In this document: piece by piece, positions 21,084 through 28,107 of the stretch | How the letters are laid out: every line of letters starts with the position of its first letter | How positions within the stretch are numbered: the stretch's first letter is position 1 | Source of the DNA: a delta proteobacterium ML8_F1 | GTDB lineage: Bacteria; Bacillota; Clostridia; Peptostreptococcales; Acidaminobacteraceae | Direction of reading: 5' to 3' | DNA: 50,800 bases | Assembly (NCBI GenBank): GCA_002029975.1 | Contig: LQBE01000019.1 | Location: forward strand, 69,311 to 120,110 | Notes under the pieces: generated by a model | The model's input: the letters and a program-made list of their open reading frames with translations, nothing else | Told to the model about the DNA's origin: nothing | Databases searched by the model: none | Program-made: the position numbers and the translations under genes

Positions 21084-21533
21084 TTATTCAATGGTTTCTC
21101 TGAAAATTTCCAGAACCTTCTGGCAGTCCACTTCGTTGCGCACCAGAATGAAAATGGTATCATCTCCTGCAATGGACCCTACGATTTCCTCAATTTTCAA
21201 AGCATCGATGGCGGCTGCGGCCACCTGGGCCGCACCGATCATCGTGGTGACCACAATGATATTTCCCGCATGGTCGATATTGAGGACGGAATCCTTGAAA
21301 AGAGTAATGAACCGTTTCAAAATCGGCGCATCGGTGTGCTGAATCGAAGAATACTTGTAGCGACCCTCCTTGGTAAGGACCTTGATGAGTCTGAGTTCCT
21401 TGATATCCCGTGAAACCGTTGCCTGGGTGACATTGAATCCCTGACGCTTGAGTTCTTCAGCGAGGTCTTCCTGGGTTTCAATCTCGTGGGTGCCGATAAT
21501 TTCGAGTATCTTTGAATGCCGGTTATACTTCAT
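21084..21533 (-). CDS. argR: Arginine repressor
   Basis: A 149-residue ArgR/AhrC. The N-terminal winged helix contains TQATVSRDIKELRLIK. The C-terminal arginine-binding and hexamerisation domain contains GSIAGDDTIFIL. It represses arginine synthesis and activates catabolism when arginine is bound. No arginine genes are in the window; the location before recN is the ordinary one. The start has AAAGGGGG upstream and overlaps tlyA by 11 nt. Confidence 0.94.
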   Translation of the reverse strand: MKYNRHSKILEIIGTHEIETQEDLAEELKRQGFNVTQATVSRDIKELRLIKVLTKEGRYKYSSIQHTDAPILKRFITLFKDSVLNIDHAGNIIVVTTMIGAAQVAAAAIDALKIEEIVGSIAGDDTIFILVRNEVDCQKVLEIFRETIE

Positions 21534-22347
21534 GTGGTCCCCCTTTTACTGAAAGATTTTCATGGGCTTCGTCTACAAGTGTCTTCACATCAATGGCCTG
21601 GCGGGCAGCATCCTTCAAGGCAAGGGTGCCCGTGACCAGAAATTCAATATTGCCCTTGGGGCCTGTGATGGGCGAATAGGTGGCCGCCTGGACAAGAAGT
21701 CCTTCCTTCTCAAGAAAGGCCAGGAGGTCCTCCAGGACATCCCTGTGAATGTTCTTGTCCCTGATGACGCCTTTTTTCCTGACGGTCTCCCTGCCCGCCT
21801 CAAACTGGGGCTTGATAAGAATCACCCAGCGGGTGGAGGGTTTCATAAAGGGCTTGAGGGCACCGACAATTTTTTTGACTGAAATGAAGGAGACATCGAC
21901 GCTAATGAAATCCACCCTTTCCCCGATGCGGTCAAAGGCAAGGTAACGGGCATTGGTCTTTTCCATGCTGACAACTCTGGGATTCTGCCGAAGACTGTAA
22001 TCCAGCTGACCGTACCCCACATCAATGCTGTAGACCCTGGCCGCCCCGTTATTGAGCATCACATGGGTGAACCCTCCTGTGGAGGCGCCAATGTCCATGC
22101 ATACCCTGTCTGTCAGATCAATACGGTACAGGTCTATGGCCTTTTGGAGCTTGTAGCCCCCTCTGGAAACAAATTCCGGTCGGTTGCCCCGGTATTCAAC
22201 GGGAAGCTCGCTGTCCACCCGGGTGCCTGGTTTGTTGACCATCAGGCCCTGGACATAAATTTCCCCCGCCATGATCATTCTTTTGGCTTTTTCCCTGGAA
22301 TCGGCATAACCGAGCTCGTGAACCCTCTGGTCGATTCTGATTTTCAC
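21523..22347 (-). CDS. tlyA: TlyA family rRNA 2'-O-methyltransferase
   Basis: A 274-residue protein with an N-terminal S4 RNA-binding domain (RIDQRVHELGYADSREKA) and a FtsJ-like SAM methyltransferase domain (DIGASTGGFTHVML near residue 86). Characterised TlyA proteins methylate ribose in rRNA and have also been described as haemolysin-like. It starts with GTG 22347, which overlaps the dxs stop by 4 nt (GTGA). The order dxs-tlyA-argR-recN is conserved in Firmicutes. Confidence 0.92.
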   Translation of the reverse strand: MKIRIDQRVHELGYADSREKAKRMIMAGEIYVQGLMVNKPGTRVDSELPVEYRGNRPEFVSRGGYKLQKAIDLYRIDLTDRVCMDIGASTGGFTHVMLNNGAARVYSIDVGYGQLDYSLRQNPRVVSMEKTNARYLAFDRIGERVDFISVDVSFISVKKIVGALKPFMKPSTRWVILIKPQFEAGRETVRKKGVIRDKNIHRDVLEDLLAFLEKEGLLVQAATYSPITGPKGNIEFLVTGTLALKDAARQAIDVKTLVDEAHENLSVKGGPHEV

Positions 22348-24182
22348 CCTTTGACAGTCCCTTCCTTTATGACTTTTAAAATCCCCCGGGGGTCAAGACC
22401 GTATTTTTCCAGCAGCAGGTCTGTCCCGCCATGGGGCACAAAGTCCTGGGGAAGGTTGATGGTGGTGACCTCGAAGGAACCCTCCCTGAGCAGCGCCGTT
22501 TCAATCAACTGGTTGATGCCGCCCTGATAAGGCGCCTCCTCGAGAAGAATGATCCTGTCATAGCCCCGGGCCCGGGCAAGAAGAGCCTCCATATTGAGGG
22601 GCTTGATCTGGCGGACACTGAGGACCCCTATTGGCTCCTCGCAAAGCTTATGCACCTCGAGGGCGGTTTTGACCATGCGGGAGTAGGTGATGATCAGAGT
22701 GTGGTCCCCGGTTTTCAACAGCTCGGGCTCACTTAGGGGGGTATTGTCCTCTAGAAGCTCATAGGCCTTGCCCCTGGGATATTTGATGGCCACCGGACCC
22801 GTCATTAAGTAGCTTTCAGAAAGAATCCGCTGCAGCTCCCGGGCATCCTTGGGGGCGAAAACCTTGAAGTTGGGAATGAGGTTCAAGTACCCCGTGTCAA
22901 AAACGCCGTGATGGGTTTCCCCATCCTCCCCCACGATACCGGAGCGGTCGATGCACACCACCACATCAAGATTCTGAAGGGCCACATCGTGAATCAGCTG
23001 GTCAAAGGCCCGCTGCAAAAATGTGGAGTAGATGACCACATAGGGCTTGAGGCCGGCCGTGGCCATACCGGCGGCCATGGTGACGGCATTCTGTTCCGCG
23101 ATGCCCACATCCACACAGCGCTCTGGAAATTCCAGGGCGAAATTCCTAAGGCCAGTGCCTGAAGTCATGGCCGCCGTCAGGGCATAGAGATTCTCATGGT
23201 CCCGGGCCATCCGAATGAGGGTCTGTCCTAAAACTGAAGAAAAATCCTGGGGAACCCTGGGCTGGACCCCGTATCTCAGGTCAAAGGGCCCCACCCCGTG
23301 ATAGAGGTCTGGATTGAGCTGGGCGTAGGGGTAGCCCTTTCCCTTGATGGTTCTGACATGGAGCAGCACCGGCTTGTCCATTTTTTTTGCGATTCCCATG
23401 GCGGTGATCAAGTCCCTGAGGTCATGACCATCCACAGGGCCGATGTAGGAAAGGCCGAAGTGCTCGAAGAACATTCCGGGAATCACCAGTTCTTTGAGAC
23501 TGCTTTTGGCCTTGGCAAGTACCTTGTAGGTCATTCCTCCGAGCTTGGATTTGCCCAGGGAAGTCACCGTGGCGTGCTTGAGCCGGTTGTAGCCCTTGAA
23601 GCTCCGCACGCGGCTCAGGGTATTGGAAACACTCCCCACATTGGGGGAAATGGACATTTCATTGTCATTGAGGATGATAATCAGCGGACTCTTGGCTTCT
23701 CCGGCGAAATTGAGTGCCTCAAAGGCTATCCCGGCTGTCAGGGCCCCGTCGCCGATTACCGGTACGACATAGTGGCTGCCGTCCTTGAAGCTGTCGGCAT
23801 AGGAAATGCCCAGGGCCGCTGAGATGGAGGTGGAAGAATGGCCGGCTTCGAAAATGTCATGCACGCTTTCACTCCGCTTGAGAAAACCACTGAGGCCGCC
23901 CGACTGCCTCAGGGTGTTGAAGCGGTCTTTTCTTCCGGTGAGGATTTTATGACTGTAGGCCTGATGGCCGACGTCCCAGATGATTTTGTCCACTGGTGAA
24001 TCAAAGACGTAATGCAGTGCCACAGTGAGTTCTACCGTCCCCAGATTCGGTGCCAGATGTCCCCCGGTCCTGGAAACTTCCTGGAGCAGAAAATCCCTCA
24101 ATTCCGAGGCGATCATCGACAGCTCCTCCAAGGAGAACTTTTTAAGGTCTTTGGGTTCATTGATCATGTCCAGATAGCCCAT
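22344..24182 (-). CDS. dxs: 1-deoxy-D-xylulose-5-phosphate synthase
   Basis: A 612-residue TPP enzyme making DXP from pyruvate and glyceraldehyde-3-phosphate, the first step of the MEP isoprenoid pathway. Seen are GHQAYSHK, the TPP motif GDGALTAGIAFEALN, and in the second half DRSGIVGEDGETHHG. The start ATG 24182 follows AGGAGA. Together with ispA upstream and ispH elsewhere in this window it indicates MEP-based isoprenoid synthesis. Confidence 0.96.
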   Translation of the reverse strand: MGYLDMINEPKDLKKFSLEELSMIASELRDFLLQEVSRTGGHLAPNLGTVELTVALHYVFDSPVDKIIWDVGHQAYSHKILTGRKDRFNTLRQSGGLSGFLKRSESVHDIFEAGHSSTSISAALGISYADSFKDGSHYVVPVIGDGALTAGIAFEALNFAGEAKSPLIIILNDNEMSISPNVGSVSNTLSRVRSFKGYNRLKHATVTSLGKSKLGGMTYKVLAKAKSSLKELVIPGMFFEHFGLSYIGPVDGHDLRDLITAMGIAKKMDKPVLLHVRTIKGKGYPYAQLNPDLYHGVGPFDLRYGVQPRVPQDFSSVLGQTLIRMARDHENLYALTAAMTSGTGLRNFALEFPERCVDVGIAEQNAVTMAAGMATAGLKPYVVIYSTFLQRAFDQLIHDVALQNLDVVVCIDRSGIVGEDGETHHGVFDTGYLNLIPNFKVFAPKDARELQRILSESYLMTGPVAIKYPRGKAYELLEDNTPLSEPELLKTGDHTLIITYSRMVKTALEVHKLCEEPIGVLSVRQIKPLNMEALLARARGYDRIILLEEAPYQGGINQLIETALLREGSFEVTTINLPQDFVPHGGTDLLLEKYGLDPRGILKVIKEGTVKG

Positions 24183-24195
24183 TAATGATGTCTCC

Positions 24196-24774
24196 TTAAT
24201 TTTCTTTTTTGAAAAACAGCAGGTTGTTTTCTAAGGTCCACAAGACCAGCGCAAAGTAATAGACGATGGTTTTCCAGTGGGTCAGGGCAATTTTTTTGCC
24301 AAATGCCTTCCCGCCGATGGTCAAAGCGGCGGCCAGACCACTGAGAAGCACCGCAATCAGGGAGATATTGTAGATGGAGACATCAAAAAGATACATTTTG
24401 AGGGCAATGGCGGCGATGGCCGCCCCGCTGATGATTCCGGCGATGTCTCCGATGACGTCGTTACAGAAGTTGGAGACCTGGTCAGCGTTGTGAACCAGCT
24501 CCACGGCCTTTGAAGCCCCCCTGACCCTTCGGGCGGCCATGGCGTTGAAGGGTCTGGCATTGGACGCCGCCACGGCAATGCCGATGCCATCAAAGAAAAC
24601 CCCGATAAAAATAATAATCAGAAAAACCAGGAAGGCTCCTGGAATATTCAGGTTTTTCACCGATAATTCTGCCAAGACCCCGATAACGATTGCCATAAAG
24701 AAACTGACCAGGGTAATTCTTATTATCCAGTGCTTATTTTTCTTTTTGGTGCTCCGGTTATTTTTTTTCTTCAT
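24196..24774 (-). CDS. oapA: OapA-like OLE-RNA-associated membrane protein
   Basis: A 192-residue integral membrane protein. A very basic N-terminus (residues 2-14, mostly Lys, Asn, Arg) is followed by at least four membrane segments (about 17-40, 46-70, 104-125, 130-155) and a possible fifth. The polar loop at about 72-103 is basic and contains NARPFNAMAARRV and NADQVSNFCNDV. Proteins of this type are sometimes labelled CorB/CNNM-like. The gene lies directly downstream of a large structured noncoding gap and upstream of dxs, exactly where OapA sits in OLE RNA loci. OapA is known to bind OLE RNA and hold it at the membrane. GGAG precedes ATG 24774. Confidence 0.8.
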   Translation of the reverse strand: MKKKNNRSTKKKNKHWIIRITLVSFFMAIVIGVLAELSVKNLNIPGAFLVFLIIIFIGVFFDGIGIAVAASNARPFNAMAARRVRGASKAVELVHNADQVSNFCNDVIGDIAGIISGAAIAAIALKMYLFDVSIYNISLIAVLLSGLAAALTIGGKAFGKKIALTHWKTIVYYFALVLWTLENNLLFFKKEN

Positions 24775-24814
24775 AAAATCTCCATTTTAAAATAAATATT
24801 AAAGAAAATATTAA

Positions 24815-25345
24815 AACAAAGGTGGCAATAGAATGGGTAAACTCTGTGCCTTAGGTCCAGTAGGATTTCCCAACCACGAACTGATGCGTCGCCGTATCAG
24901 CAGTTTCCTATTATTCATGGCTTCGTTCTGTTGCCAGCAACGAGACTGAACTACCACTCAGTACACACTTCAATCCCCATTCCATTTCACAAAGGAACAG
25001 TCTAGGAGATTTCCTCAACAACGCCAGACATCCTTAGCCTCTTTTGCAGTGATGGTTTAGATTAGCAAAATGCAATATCGTCCACCAAACGCCACTCAAG
25101 GCAGGCTACACTGCAGGCAGGATCACTGCCTACAGGTTTCATCCCGCTTGAAATCAAGCGGGTCTCCACGGAATAAGGGTCGTTGACCGCATGCCATTGC
25201 GGTTCGCCCCCAGTTCCTTACTCCCAGCCAGGACCCATTACTGGGCGTAACAAGCCCGCAACCAGGAACTTCATCGATGTGCCCTTCGACGGATTTTTAG
25301 CCCCGCCTTCAGGATGCTTTTGTTGACTAGAATACTGCGCCACCT
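24815..25345 (-). ncRNA. ole: OLE RNA (ornate, large, extremophilic RNA)
   Basis: The 577-bp gap between the PAP2-like gene and the oapA-like gene holds no credible ORF and is much richer in G+C and hairpins than an ordinary leader. Read on the minus strand it contains a 9-bp hairpin (25143-25151 with 25154-25162), a 10-bp hairpin completed by a U-G wobble (25111-25120 with 25126-25135), a GCGA (GNRA) tetraloop hairpin (24882-24899), and a hairpin at about 25178-25195. The wobble and GNRA loop exist only on the minus strand, which is the operon's direction. Known OLE RNAs are about 600 nt and lie in ispA-dxs operons next to oapA. The RNA joins OapA at the membrane and affects stress tolerance in Halalkalibacterium. 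Ends are approximate. Confidence 0.8.
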
Positions 25346-25352
25346 TATACTG

Positions 25353-25799
25353 CTATTTTATCATAATATTGGCCATTAAAATGCCTAAAAGTGCCCCGAC
25401 AAAAACTTCATAGGGGGTATGCCCCACCAGTTCCTTCATTTTCTGCTGACCGATGTGCCGGTGCTTGTACAGGTCTTCAATCATGGTATTGAGGATAATG
25501 GCCTGTTTCCCCACGGCACGCCTGACTCCGGAGGCATCGTACATGACCACCAGGGAAAAAACCAGGGAAACCGCAAAAAGACCGCTGTCAAAGCCAAAGT
25601 CCAGTCCCACGGCGGTGGTCACCGCCATGACAATAGCGGCATGGGAGCTCGGCATGCCTCCGGAACCCACCATCCGGTAGAGATTGAGTTTTTTGTCGAA
25701 AACCAGGGTGAGGACCACCTTAGCGATCTGGGCAATAAACCAGGACAAAAACGCCACTGAAAAATATGGATTTGAAAAAATGTCTTTGACAACCATCAT
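25353..25799 (-). CDS. Divergent PAP2 family protein (DUF212, YuiD-like)
   Basis: A 148-residue membrane protein with about four hydrophobic segments. The motif GSGGMPSSHAA (near residues 46-56) and a later VGHTPYEV resemble the phosphatase core of PAP2 enzymes. An undecaprenyl- or isoprenyl-phosphate phosphatase role would fit its place beside ispA, but the family has no settled function. Two adjacent ATG codons at 25799 and 25796 are possible starts. It lies 2 nt after ispA and just before the OLE RNA. Confidence 0.85.
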   Translation of the reverse strand: MMVVKDIFSNPYFSVAFLSWFIAQIAKVVLTLVFDKKLNLYRMVGSGGMPSSHAAIVMAVTTAVGLDFGFDSGLFAVSLVFSLVVMYDASGVRRAVGKQAIILNTMIEDLYKHRHIGQQKMKELVGHTPYEVFVGALLGILMANIMIK

Positions 25800-25801
25800 A
25801 T

Positions 25802-26689
25802 CTACTTCTCTCTTTTTTGAAGTTCCTGAATCAATTCTATCATAAATGACCAGTCATATTCATCCATATTCCTGAGAATCGACTCGGCTTCCTCCAGGGA
25901 GGCTTCAATGGTCCTTTTGGTTTTTTCCAGACCATAGTGGGCGGGGTAGGTGTTTTTTCCCAGGAGGGCGTCCCGATTCGAGGCCTTGCCCATGACCCGG
26001 GCTTCTCCTTCAAGGTCCAAAAGATCATCCTGGAGCTGAAAACTGAACCCCATCAAAAGTCCGACCCTTTCAAGAGCCGTCAGCTTTTCTTTTGGAAGGC
26101 CCGAGAGAATTCCCGCCCCAATGAGAGGAGCCGTGATGAGTCTGGCGGTTTTATTGATAATCAGGTAATCCAGCAGCTCCGGCTCCAGGTTAATGTGCTC
26201 GGACTCGATATCCACTACCTGCCCTCCGATCATGCCCTTTTCACCGGCGGCGCCGGCTATGGTGGCCACGCACAGGGCGGTGGTTCTCGGATCTGTCGCG
26301 GTACAGACGGCTTCGGTCATGATTTCATAGGCCTTGTTGAGGAGTCCGTCCCCGGAAAGAATCGCCAGAGCCTCATTGAACTGCTTGTGGGCCGTGGGTT
26401 GACCCCGGCGCAGGGCGTCATCATCCATGGCCGGCAGGTCGTCGTGGATCAGTGAATAGGTGTGGATCATTTCGATGGCCAGTCCCATCCTGAGGGCCGT
26501 ATCCACGGGCCCCCCCAGGATTTCGGTGGTTTTGAGCATGAGAACCGGTCTGAGCCGCTTGCCCCCGGAAAGCAATGAGTAGTTCATAACCTCATTGAAA
26601 TAGGCCTCATAGGCATTGTCCGCCCGGGTGAAGACCCCCTTGAGACCCTCTTCTATCCTGGATTTGGCTGCCTCATAGGCCTCATTCAT
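25802..26689 (-). CDS. ispA: Farnesyl/geranyl diphosphate synthase (polyprenyl synthetase)
   Basis: A 295-residue trans-isoprenyl diphosphate synthase. The first aspartate-rich motif DDLPAMDDD and the second DDLLD, together with GGKRLRP, are intact. It condenses IPP with DMAPP and GPP to give FPP. The start ATG 26689 overlaps the xseB stop by 8 nt. An upstream in-frame extension lies inside xseB and is rejected. Placement between xseB and dxs is typical of Firmicutes. Confidence 0.94.
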   Translation of the reverse strand: MNEAYEAAKSRIEEGLKGVFTRADNAYEAYFNEVMNYSLLSGGKRLRPVLMLKTTEILGGPVDTALRMGLAIEMIHTYSLIHDDLPAMDDDALRRGQPTAHKQFNEALAILSGDGLLNKAYEIMTEAVCTATDPRTTALCVATIAGAAGEKGMIGGQVVDIESEHINLEPELLDYLIINKTARLITAPLIGAGILSGLPKEKLTALERVGLLMGFSFQLQDDLLDLEGEARVMGKASNRDALLGKNTYPAHYGLEKTKRTIEASLEEAESILRNMDEYDWSFMIELIQELQKREK

Positions 26690-26903
26690 TGACTTCACCC
26701 GTTGCATCATCCACCAGTTCCCCCTCCACCAGCAGGGCAATCCTGCTTTTGACCTGCTCCAGCTCCTGGAGGCCTTCACGATAGGTCTTCAGACCCCTCT
26801 CAAAGAGAAGCAGAGAGTCCGTCAGGGAGGTTTCCTCCTTTTCCAGGGTGGTCAAAATTTCTTTCAGTTCCTCGAGACGCTCTTCAATACTCTTCTTTTT
26901 CAT
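26682..26903 (-). CDS. xseB: Exodeoxyribonuclease VII small subunit
   Basis: A 73-residue, mostly helical, charged protein of the XseB family. The LFERGLKTYREGLQELEQVKSRI region is the usual core, quoted here as a pattern only. It assembles in several copies on XseA to degrade single-stranded DNA. It overlaps xseA by 20 nt. Confidence 0.93.
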   Translation of the reverse strand: MKKKSIEERLEELKEILTTLEKEETSLTDSLLLFERGLKTYREGLQELEQVKSRIALLVEGELVDDATGEVNE

Positions 26904-28107
26904 GACTCACCTCGATTCTTTCAACGACGGACAGAATTTTCCCATCCTTGAGTTCATTGGTTATGGCATCGCCGGCTTTGACGGTCTTCACCGACCTGAT
27001 AAATCCGCCCCCGGTCTTTTCAAGCCTGGCATACCCCTTGTCCAGGATATTCAGGGGGTTCACCCCGTTGATTCTCTCCATGGTCAGATTGAGTTCGTAG
27101 GAGATGGCGTCTATCCTTTTGTTCATGACGGCCACGGTCCTTTGGGCCCACTCTGCAAAGCTGTAATGCATGTCGGCAAGTCGTTTCTCCAGGGGGAATC
27201 CCAGGGTTTGGGGCTGGTATCCGGCAAGGGCCTCTTCCCGGCGCCTGACCTTATCCGTCACCAGTCGTTTCATGGCCTTAAGCGCCGCCCGTTGCTCTCC
27301 GAGGACGGCCCCAAGATCCACCGCCACGATTTCCGCAGCAGCCGAAGGGGTGGGCGCTCTTAAGTCACTCACAAAATCCACAATGGTGAAATCGGTTTCA
27401 TGGCCGATGGCGCTGATAACCGGAAGGTTCATCCCGTAGATTTTCCTGGCAATGGCCTCGGAATTGAAGACGCTGAGTTCGTCATAGGCGCCTCCTCCCC
27501 GGGTCAGGATGATTAAGTCAAGCCCCTCGAGGTGCCGGGCTTCATCCAGAGCCCCCAGAACCTCGGTTTCTGTTTTCTCCCCCTGAACCGTTGCTGGAAT
27601 CACTATCAGCTCCAGGAGCGGATTCCTGCGGCGGCAAACGGCAATGACATCCTGAAGGGCCGCCCCGGTTCTCGATGTGATGACGCCGACCTTCTTTATG
27701 TTTTGGGGCAAAGGCCGCTTGTGGGCTTCATCAAAGAGACCCTCTTTGCCCAGGTCTTCTTTGAGCTTGAGGAATTTTTCATAGAGTGCCCCCATCCCCG
27801 AGAGGGTCATGCGGGTCACATACAGCTGATAGGTCCCGTTCTTGTCGTAAATGCCGACCTTGCCGAAAAGCACCACCAGGTCCCCCTCCTTCGGTTTGAA
27901 GGTCAGGGTCTGGTAATGACTGGCAAACATCACACAGTTGATGCGGCTTTTGTCATCCTTCAAGGTGAAGTAGGCATGCCCCGAGGCATGGGGTTTGAAT
28001 CCTGAAATTTCTCCCTGGACCTTGAGGGCATTGAGGATGGGATCCGCAGACAGGATTCCCCTGATGTAGTGGTTGGTCTCGGTTACAGTAAGGGTTCTAT
28101 AGTTCAC
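26884..28107 (-). CDS. xseA: Exodeoxyribonuclease VII large subunit
   Basis: A 407-residue nuclease subunit. An N-terminal OB-fold is followed by the catalytic domain with GVITSRTGAALQDV, LTRGGGAYDEL and AIGHETDFT, and a coiled C-terminal region. It cuts single-stranded DNA from both ends. It starts at GTG 28107, with GGAGG inside the end of the upstream gene, overlapping that gene by 11 nt. Confidence 0.95.
   Translation of the reverse strand: MNYRTLTVTETNHYIRGILSADPILNALKVQGEISGFKPHASGHAYFTLKDDKSRINCVMFASHYQTLTFKPKEGDLVVLFGKVGIYDKNGTYQLYVTRMTLSGMGALYEKFLKLKEDLGKEGLFDEAHKRPLPQNIKKVGVITSRTGAALQDVIAVCRRRNPLLELIVIPATVQGEKTETEVLGALDEARHLEGLDLIILTRGGGAYDELSVFNSEAIARKIYGMNLPVISAIGHETDFTIVDFVSDLRAPTPSAAAEIVAVDLGAVLGEQRAALKAMKRLVTDKVRRREEALAGYQPQTLGFPLEKRLADMHYSFAEWAQRTVAVMNKRIDAISYELNLTMERINGVNPLNILDKGYARLEKTGGGFIRSVKTVKAGDAITNELKDGKILSVVERIEVSHEKEEY

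Follow-up and report, generated by a model that had tools for sequence, protein, structure and literature searches.

The gap between positions 24775 and 25352 of the window, i.e. the whole 50.8-kb stretch of DNA that was analysed, is occupied on the minus strand by an OLE RNA, an identity that we regard as sure. Also held with high confidence is the wider reading of the locus, namely an OLE gene in its usual cluster, whose transcript would dimerise through bridges B1 and B2 without bridge B3 and would be held by OapA in a stress ribonucleoprotein particle (RNP). Among bacterial RNAs whose biochemical function is not known, OLE RNA is one of the largest and best conserved. Its reported structure is a protein-free dimer, in which three contacts, B1 to B3, are known. 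Published work already covers the OLE class together with its partners, its usual gene neighbourhood and part of its structure, and the available parts of the literature on H. halodurans and C. acetobutylicum describe a membrane-bound RNP needed for growth under cold, alcohol and Mg2+ stress (PMC11332333, PMC12265935, PMC12286853, PMC9723947, PMC12054373).

An Rfam 15 scan of the whole window placed RF01071 at 24806-25359 of the minus strand, where 554 nt are aligned to model positions 1-616 of 616 at 449.7 bits against a gathering cut-off of 50 (E 7.2e-129). No other match from all Rfam 15 exceeded its gathering cut-off in the 50.8 kb, the 2.38-Mb, 58-contig source genome contains one OLE copy, and none of 14 control genomes matched RF01071. 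The scan is the covariance-model check of the minus strand that the initial annotation had proposed, and the supposition made there, of an OLE RNA beside oapA in an ispA-dxs cluster, is borne out by a score about 400 bits over the cut-off and by the OapA-like gene and dxs found downstream. The absence of a credible gene from the gap had also been seen correctly: inside 24775-25352 neither strand has an ORF of at least 60 aa, and a plus-strand ORF of 83 aa (24539-24790) overlaps only the edge. The gap extends exactly from the end of the DUF212 ORF (25353, stop included) to the ATG of the OapA-like gene (24774), both on the minus strand, and the OLE match starts at the extreme end of the DUF212 gene. 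Since the match stops at 24806, the 31 bp of 24775-24805 are taken as the leader of the OapA-like gene. When 24100-26000 was scanned for promoters and terminators, 5 matches of each kind were obtained where 2.2 and 1.9, respectively, would be expected, and no match was convincing. The genes of the cluster are the following.

21523-22347, minus strand: tlyA-like S4/FtsJ methyltransferase gene (PF01728 and PF01479)
22344-24182, minus strand: dxs, DXP synthase (PF13292, E 4e-117)
24196-24774, minus strand: oapA-like membrane protein gene, 192 aa, directly downstream of OLE
24806-25359, minus strand: OLE RNA, whole RF01071 model (449.7 bits, E 7.2e-129)
25353-25799, minus strand: DUF212 (Divergent PAP2 family) gene (PF02681, E 6.2e-49)
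25802-26689, minus strand: ispA, polyprenyl synthase (PF00348, E 4.5e-54), its ATG at 26689 read from the translation
26682-26903, minus strand: xseB, exonuclease VII small subunit (PF02609)
26884-28107, minus strand: xseA, exonuclease VII large subunit (PF02601)

The order of the cluster is thus xseA-xseB-ispA-DUF212-ole-oapA-dxs-tlyA, and beyond the tlyA-like gene there are ORFs recognised by eye as argR and recN. What the initial annotation named as a PAP2-like gene and as a DUF212 gene is one single gene, since PF02681 is itself the "Divergent PAP2 family". The position of DUF212 between ispA and the RNA, which had been put forward as the distinguishing trait of this copy, had to be given up as a peculiarity and is ordinary, because among 221 distinct OLE loci queried for seven genes DUF212 was the nearest upstream in 125, ispA in 33 and xseB in 4; in 49 loci no gene of the seven was seen upstream, and in 10 the flanks were short.

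These loci came from relatives, from evenly drawn samples of the order and of the class, and from 12 named loci chosen by OapA similarity. An OLE match at E 0.001 was present in 32/61 close genomes, 81/393 of the order and 151/391 of the class, the draws overlapping, and the locus set covers these 151 class genomes except for about 17, most of them mid-scoring. Of 231 loci, 225 had an OLE match (nhmmer), and removal of 4 identical copies left the 221, in which two genomes are counted twice (L003/L024 and L002/L040). The set of 215 RNAs used for the structural comparison drops L024 and L040, the cut-off copies L094, L219 and L225, and L005, whose short contig carries the label Actinomycetota and whose OLE has a long P9 with GAGCTC. 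Two OLE copies per genome were seen in G120 (L056 and L067) and G079 (L049 and L066). For L067, the second copy of G120, no match to oapA lies within 2 kb, and the two P9 tips of this genome differ slightly, that of L067 being CGGCCAAT and the other GGGCCAAT. Such pairs may be genuine paralogues, or the assemblies may be mixed.

Twelve homologues of the OapA-like protein were found, with identities of 37-74%, and every one of them is encoded at a locus that has an OLE match. The protein has a Lys-rich N terminus and hydrophobic segments at about residues 17-35, 48-66, 107-125 and 137-155. No match to it reached a Pfam or NCBIfam cut-off, that to CNNM (E 0.0038) lying below the Pfam one, and the name OapA therefore rests on position, on relatives at other OLE loci and on hydropathy; the available text of PMC11332333 likewise reports a weak connection of OapA to the CNNM domain. 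The OapB homologue (99 aa, L132:10985-11284) is encoded between map and infA, and among solved structures its best match is OLE-associated protein B (7k9b, E 5.8e-12). The OapC/YbxF homologue is an 85-aa L7Ae-family protein encoded between ORFs reading as rpoC and rpsL; a second L7Ae-family protein is found elsewhere in the source genome, which also has one copy of a bS21 homologue. Judged by homology, the partner genes oapB, oapC and bS21 are thus present. Five OLE loci with about 2 kb on each side (L176, L180, L135, L178, L212) showed no OapA match there; the genome of L178, G703, has on another contig an OapA-sized ORF with a weak resemblance to CNNM, and ole and oapA may be unlinked in it.

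The elements of the RNA that bear on dimerisation and protein binding were located from the sequence and, for P9 and P13, also from the alignment.

24881-24900, minus strand: P13 hairpin, conserved GGCGAC loop present
25046-25106, minus strand: P9, shortened to 61 nt, P9.3 and L9.3 missing
25190-25199, minus strand: L6 loop CAATGGCATG, part of bridge B2 (role as given in the available text of PMC12286853), intact
25240-25247, minus strand: L5 loop CGCCCAGT, part of bridge B2 (same source), intact
25291-25300, minus strand: L4 A-rich loop CTAAAAATCC, bridge B1 (same source), intact

The GGC of L6 is complementary to the GCC of L5. By sequence, B1 (L4) and B2 are both represented in the window RNA, B2 being judged on its L5/L6 part, as L7 is also counted in this bridge in the accessible part of PMC12286853. 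The P13 region is reported, in what is available of PMC9723947, as the OapB site. The same loops are conserved in all short-P9 RNAs: TAAAAA in L4 was found in 12/12, GCCCAG in L5 in 12/12 and GGCAT in L6 in 12/12. P6 of the H. halodurans OLE RNA is said to contain a CCUCCU mimic of the anti-Shine-Dalgarno sequence, linked to bS21 binding. The 3' strand of P6 in the window RNA (25170-25181) reads GACCCTTATTCC and lacks CCUCC. In the one P6 strand segment that was parsable in 154 of the 215 OLE RNAs, CCTCC occurred in 10 and CCTCCT in 1. Binding of bS21 by Shine-Dalgarno mimicry may not be general across OLE RNAs.

In P9 the window RNA departs from most of its class. The length of this element, measured from GCCTGCCTTGAG to the CTGC before AAAAGAGGC, is bimodal in the 215 RNAs, with 43-61 nt in 12, 80-113 nt in 203 and none between; it is 61 nt in the window and 60 nt in a metagenome-assembled genome (MAG) of the same genus. 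Long P9 elements mostly end in a self-complementary loop, GGCC or else AGCT, GCGC, GTAC, GATC and others. GGCC occurs within P9 in 179 of the 203 long RNAs and in 0 of the 12 short ones. With a tip finder based on the minimum-energy fold, palindromic tetramers were found in 184/203 long-P9 tips, against about 100 (about 49%) after letter shuffling, and palindromic hexamers in 119 of 203 against 29 by letter shuffle; of the 19 long tips without a palindromic tetramer, 16 contain GGCC in P9, and the others are L071, L201 and L208. According to the consulted portion of PMC12286853, the palindromic kissing loop L9.3 forms bridge B3 of the cryo-EM dimer, and its covariation from GGCC to GAUC or AGCU was already reported, so that the turnover of the palindrome is not new; the present sample adds the forms GUAC and GCGC. 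A palindromic L9.3 on a long P9, by which B3 is recognised in sequence, is absent from the window RNA, whose remnant tip lies at about 25061-25078. The outer P9 including L9.3 is, as far as sequence can tell, lost from this OLE, and since 12/215 RNAs lack a long P9, B3 is not defining for OLE RNA. Short-P9 variants and the switching of the L9.3 palindrome are both published; a statement that P9 shortening removes B3 while B1 and B2 stay was not found in the open-licence PMC literature.

G003 and G004 are the nearest relatives of the window RNA; both retain P9.3, its tip being palindromic, and in the careful tree the window and its genus-mate group (98/93) with these two. As the window RNA shares with them the same 3' flank GCTAATCTAAACC, a deletion of about 30 nt (91 to 61 nt) is the simplest account of the shortening. 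In a quick tree of the 215 RNAs, computed without P9, the P9 state changes 10 times by parsimony, which is blind to gain versus loss. The careful tree of 28 rows (21 of the own family, 7 of other families) requires 3 changes, 2 of them forced by well-supported branches. Forcing the five short-P9 rows of the family, among which L044 has a long branch, into one clade cost 22.9 log units (AU p 0.013, the test being run in the same script as the tree on a group defined by its P9 label). On these trees a short P9 appears to have arisen more than once. No link of arch loss to loss of OapB or OapC was found: OapB-like matches occurred in 10/11 arch-lost and 16/19 arch-kept genomes, and OapC-like matches in 9/11 and 15/19, counts which exclude the searched G485 and G747, where P9 was unread. 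Distant OapC matches of 28-33% identity could represent the YlxQ paralogue.

Three CNNM proteins are encoded in the source genome. Two of them show the MpfA layout CNNM-CBS-CorC_HlyC, and the third lacks CorC_HlyC; their sites include G000:C13:13343-13882 and G000:C18:3942-5519 (L232, L233). In a chosen set of genomes, not a random draw, at least one CNNM match above 100 bits was found in 14 of 32 OLE-bearing genomes, three in the genome of the window only, and in 6 of 7 OLE-free family members. The three CNNM proteins beside an OLE RNA run counter to the reported trend that OLE species carry at most one MpfA, and they could make the OLE particle partly redundant. One alternative is that the OLE gene itself is decaying, the P9 deletion being the first sign while MpfA-type proteins take over, which would agree both with the CNNM content of this genome and with the anticorrelation of OLE and MpfA reported in the accessible text of PMC11332333. 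We nevertheless consider decay very improbable, for the L4, L5, L6 and P13 loops and the whole-model match are intact, the OapA-, OapB- and OapC-like genes are all kept, and the same-genus G001 also has an OLE with an adjoining OapA-like ORF. Moreover, G003 keeps the arch and has two strong CNNM matches, whereas the arch-lost G008, G013 and G014 are without any CNNM match at E 0.001; arch loss therefore does not track MpfA, and no link between it and MpfA gain was found among the 32 OLE-bearing genomes.

Another alternative to a dimer without B3 is that the short P9 elements of two RNAs still touch by way of a new short palindrome, and that all three bridges remain. A TGCA does sit at the P9 tip of the window RNA, but the tip window of the relative from the same genus has no such palindrome, and palindromic tetramers in 4 of the 12 short tips, the TGCA of the window among them, are no more than the roughly 49% (100/203) expected by chance from shuffled long tips. 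A P9 of 61 nt also looks too short for the reported arch, and we hold this alternative to be unlikely. That the gap is instead an unannotated protein gene has a negligible probability: although a stop-to-stop stretch of at least 100 aa exists in some frame of 62/215 OLE copies, the longest in the window copy, taken with 15 nt on each side and in six frames, is only 57 aa, and the match to a model of structure and sequence stands at E 7e-129.

The preferred reading, of an OLE particle that lacks only the arch contact, can be put as follows. The locus would be a full OLE RNA gene in the usual operon-like cluster, the transcript of which, its transcription being supposed from other species, most likely folds into the OLE structure. 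Two copies would pair through the A-A contact of L4 (B1) and the loop-loop contacts of L5 and L6 (B2), and from the loss of the P9.3 arch and L9.3 in this lineage the dimer is predicted to form without B3; that it persists so we infer ourselves, beyond the published work on other species. OapA would hold the dimer at the membrane, with P12.2/P13 as the expected site of OapB, the P5 kink-turn as that of OapC and P6 as that of bS21. By analogy the particle would be an RNP of adaptation to cold, alcohol and Mg2+ stress, which probably regulates or tunes OapA, a CNNM-like putative metal transporter.

It is tempting to speculate that the B3 arch is a separable module that has been lost repeatedly, the L4, L5 and L6 motifs having been kept every time (12/12), a view for which we see the chances as evenly balanced. 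If it is true, the essential function would lie in dimerisation through domain 1, and the arch would be accessory, perhaps an arm for docking or sensing that is dispensable in some hosts, and the lineage of the window would be a natural arch-deletion mutant still equipped with OapA, OapB, OapC and bS21. Natural copies without the arch separate the bridges from one another, and if the window RNA dimerised and bound OapA, the arch would be unneeded for the core particle. The pair formed by G000, in which the arch is lost, and its close relatives G003 and G004, in which it is kept, makes the question of the arch directly testable.

Compared with the full-length OLE RNA of C. acetobutylicum, known from cryo-EM (PMC12286853, available part), the window RNA is alike in its whole-model match, in L4, L5/L6 and the P13 loop, in the adjacent oapA-like gene and in the ispA-dxs neighbourhood, and differs by its 61-nt P9 without P9.3/L9.3. 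In the sections at hand of PMC12265935 the P9 arch is described as the fourth contact of the dimer, while P7 and P8 are said to take no part in dimer contact, a possible reason for their loss in some RNAs. The OLE "variant 1", according to the accessible portion of PMC11332333, has shorter P7, P8 and P9, occurs most commonly in TANB77 hosts, which largely lack OapB and OapC, and is often without the OapB site at the end of P13. The window RNA likewise has a short P9; its P7 interval of 24 nt equals the lower quartile of long-P9 RNAs (median 33, 173/203 parsed), and its P8 interval of 22 nt lies just under theirs of 25 (median 29, 190/203 parsed), so that the shortness of P7 and P8 is only mild beside that of P9. 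It differs from variant 1 in that P8 and the GGCGAC loop of P13 are present, as are the OapB- and OapC-like genes, and from its sequence it is only partly like variant 1. Two other short-P9 RNAs, L010 from a MAG labelled Mollicutes, with a P8 interval of 7 nt, and L224 from G429, which has no OapB-like or OapC-like match, resemble the published reduced variants. The OLE locus of the same genus, in Clostridia bacterium M55B163 (JAGYOH010000005.1; L002, L040), is equal to that of the window in gene order and in the shortening of P9, and differs from it in the sequence of the remnant P9 tip.
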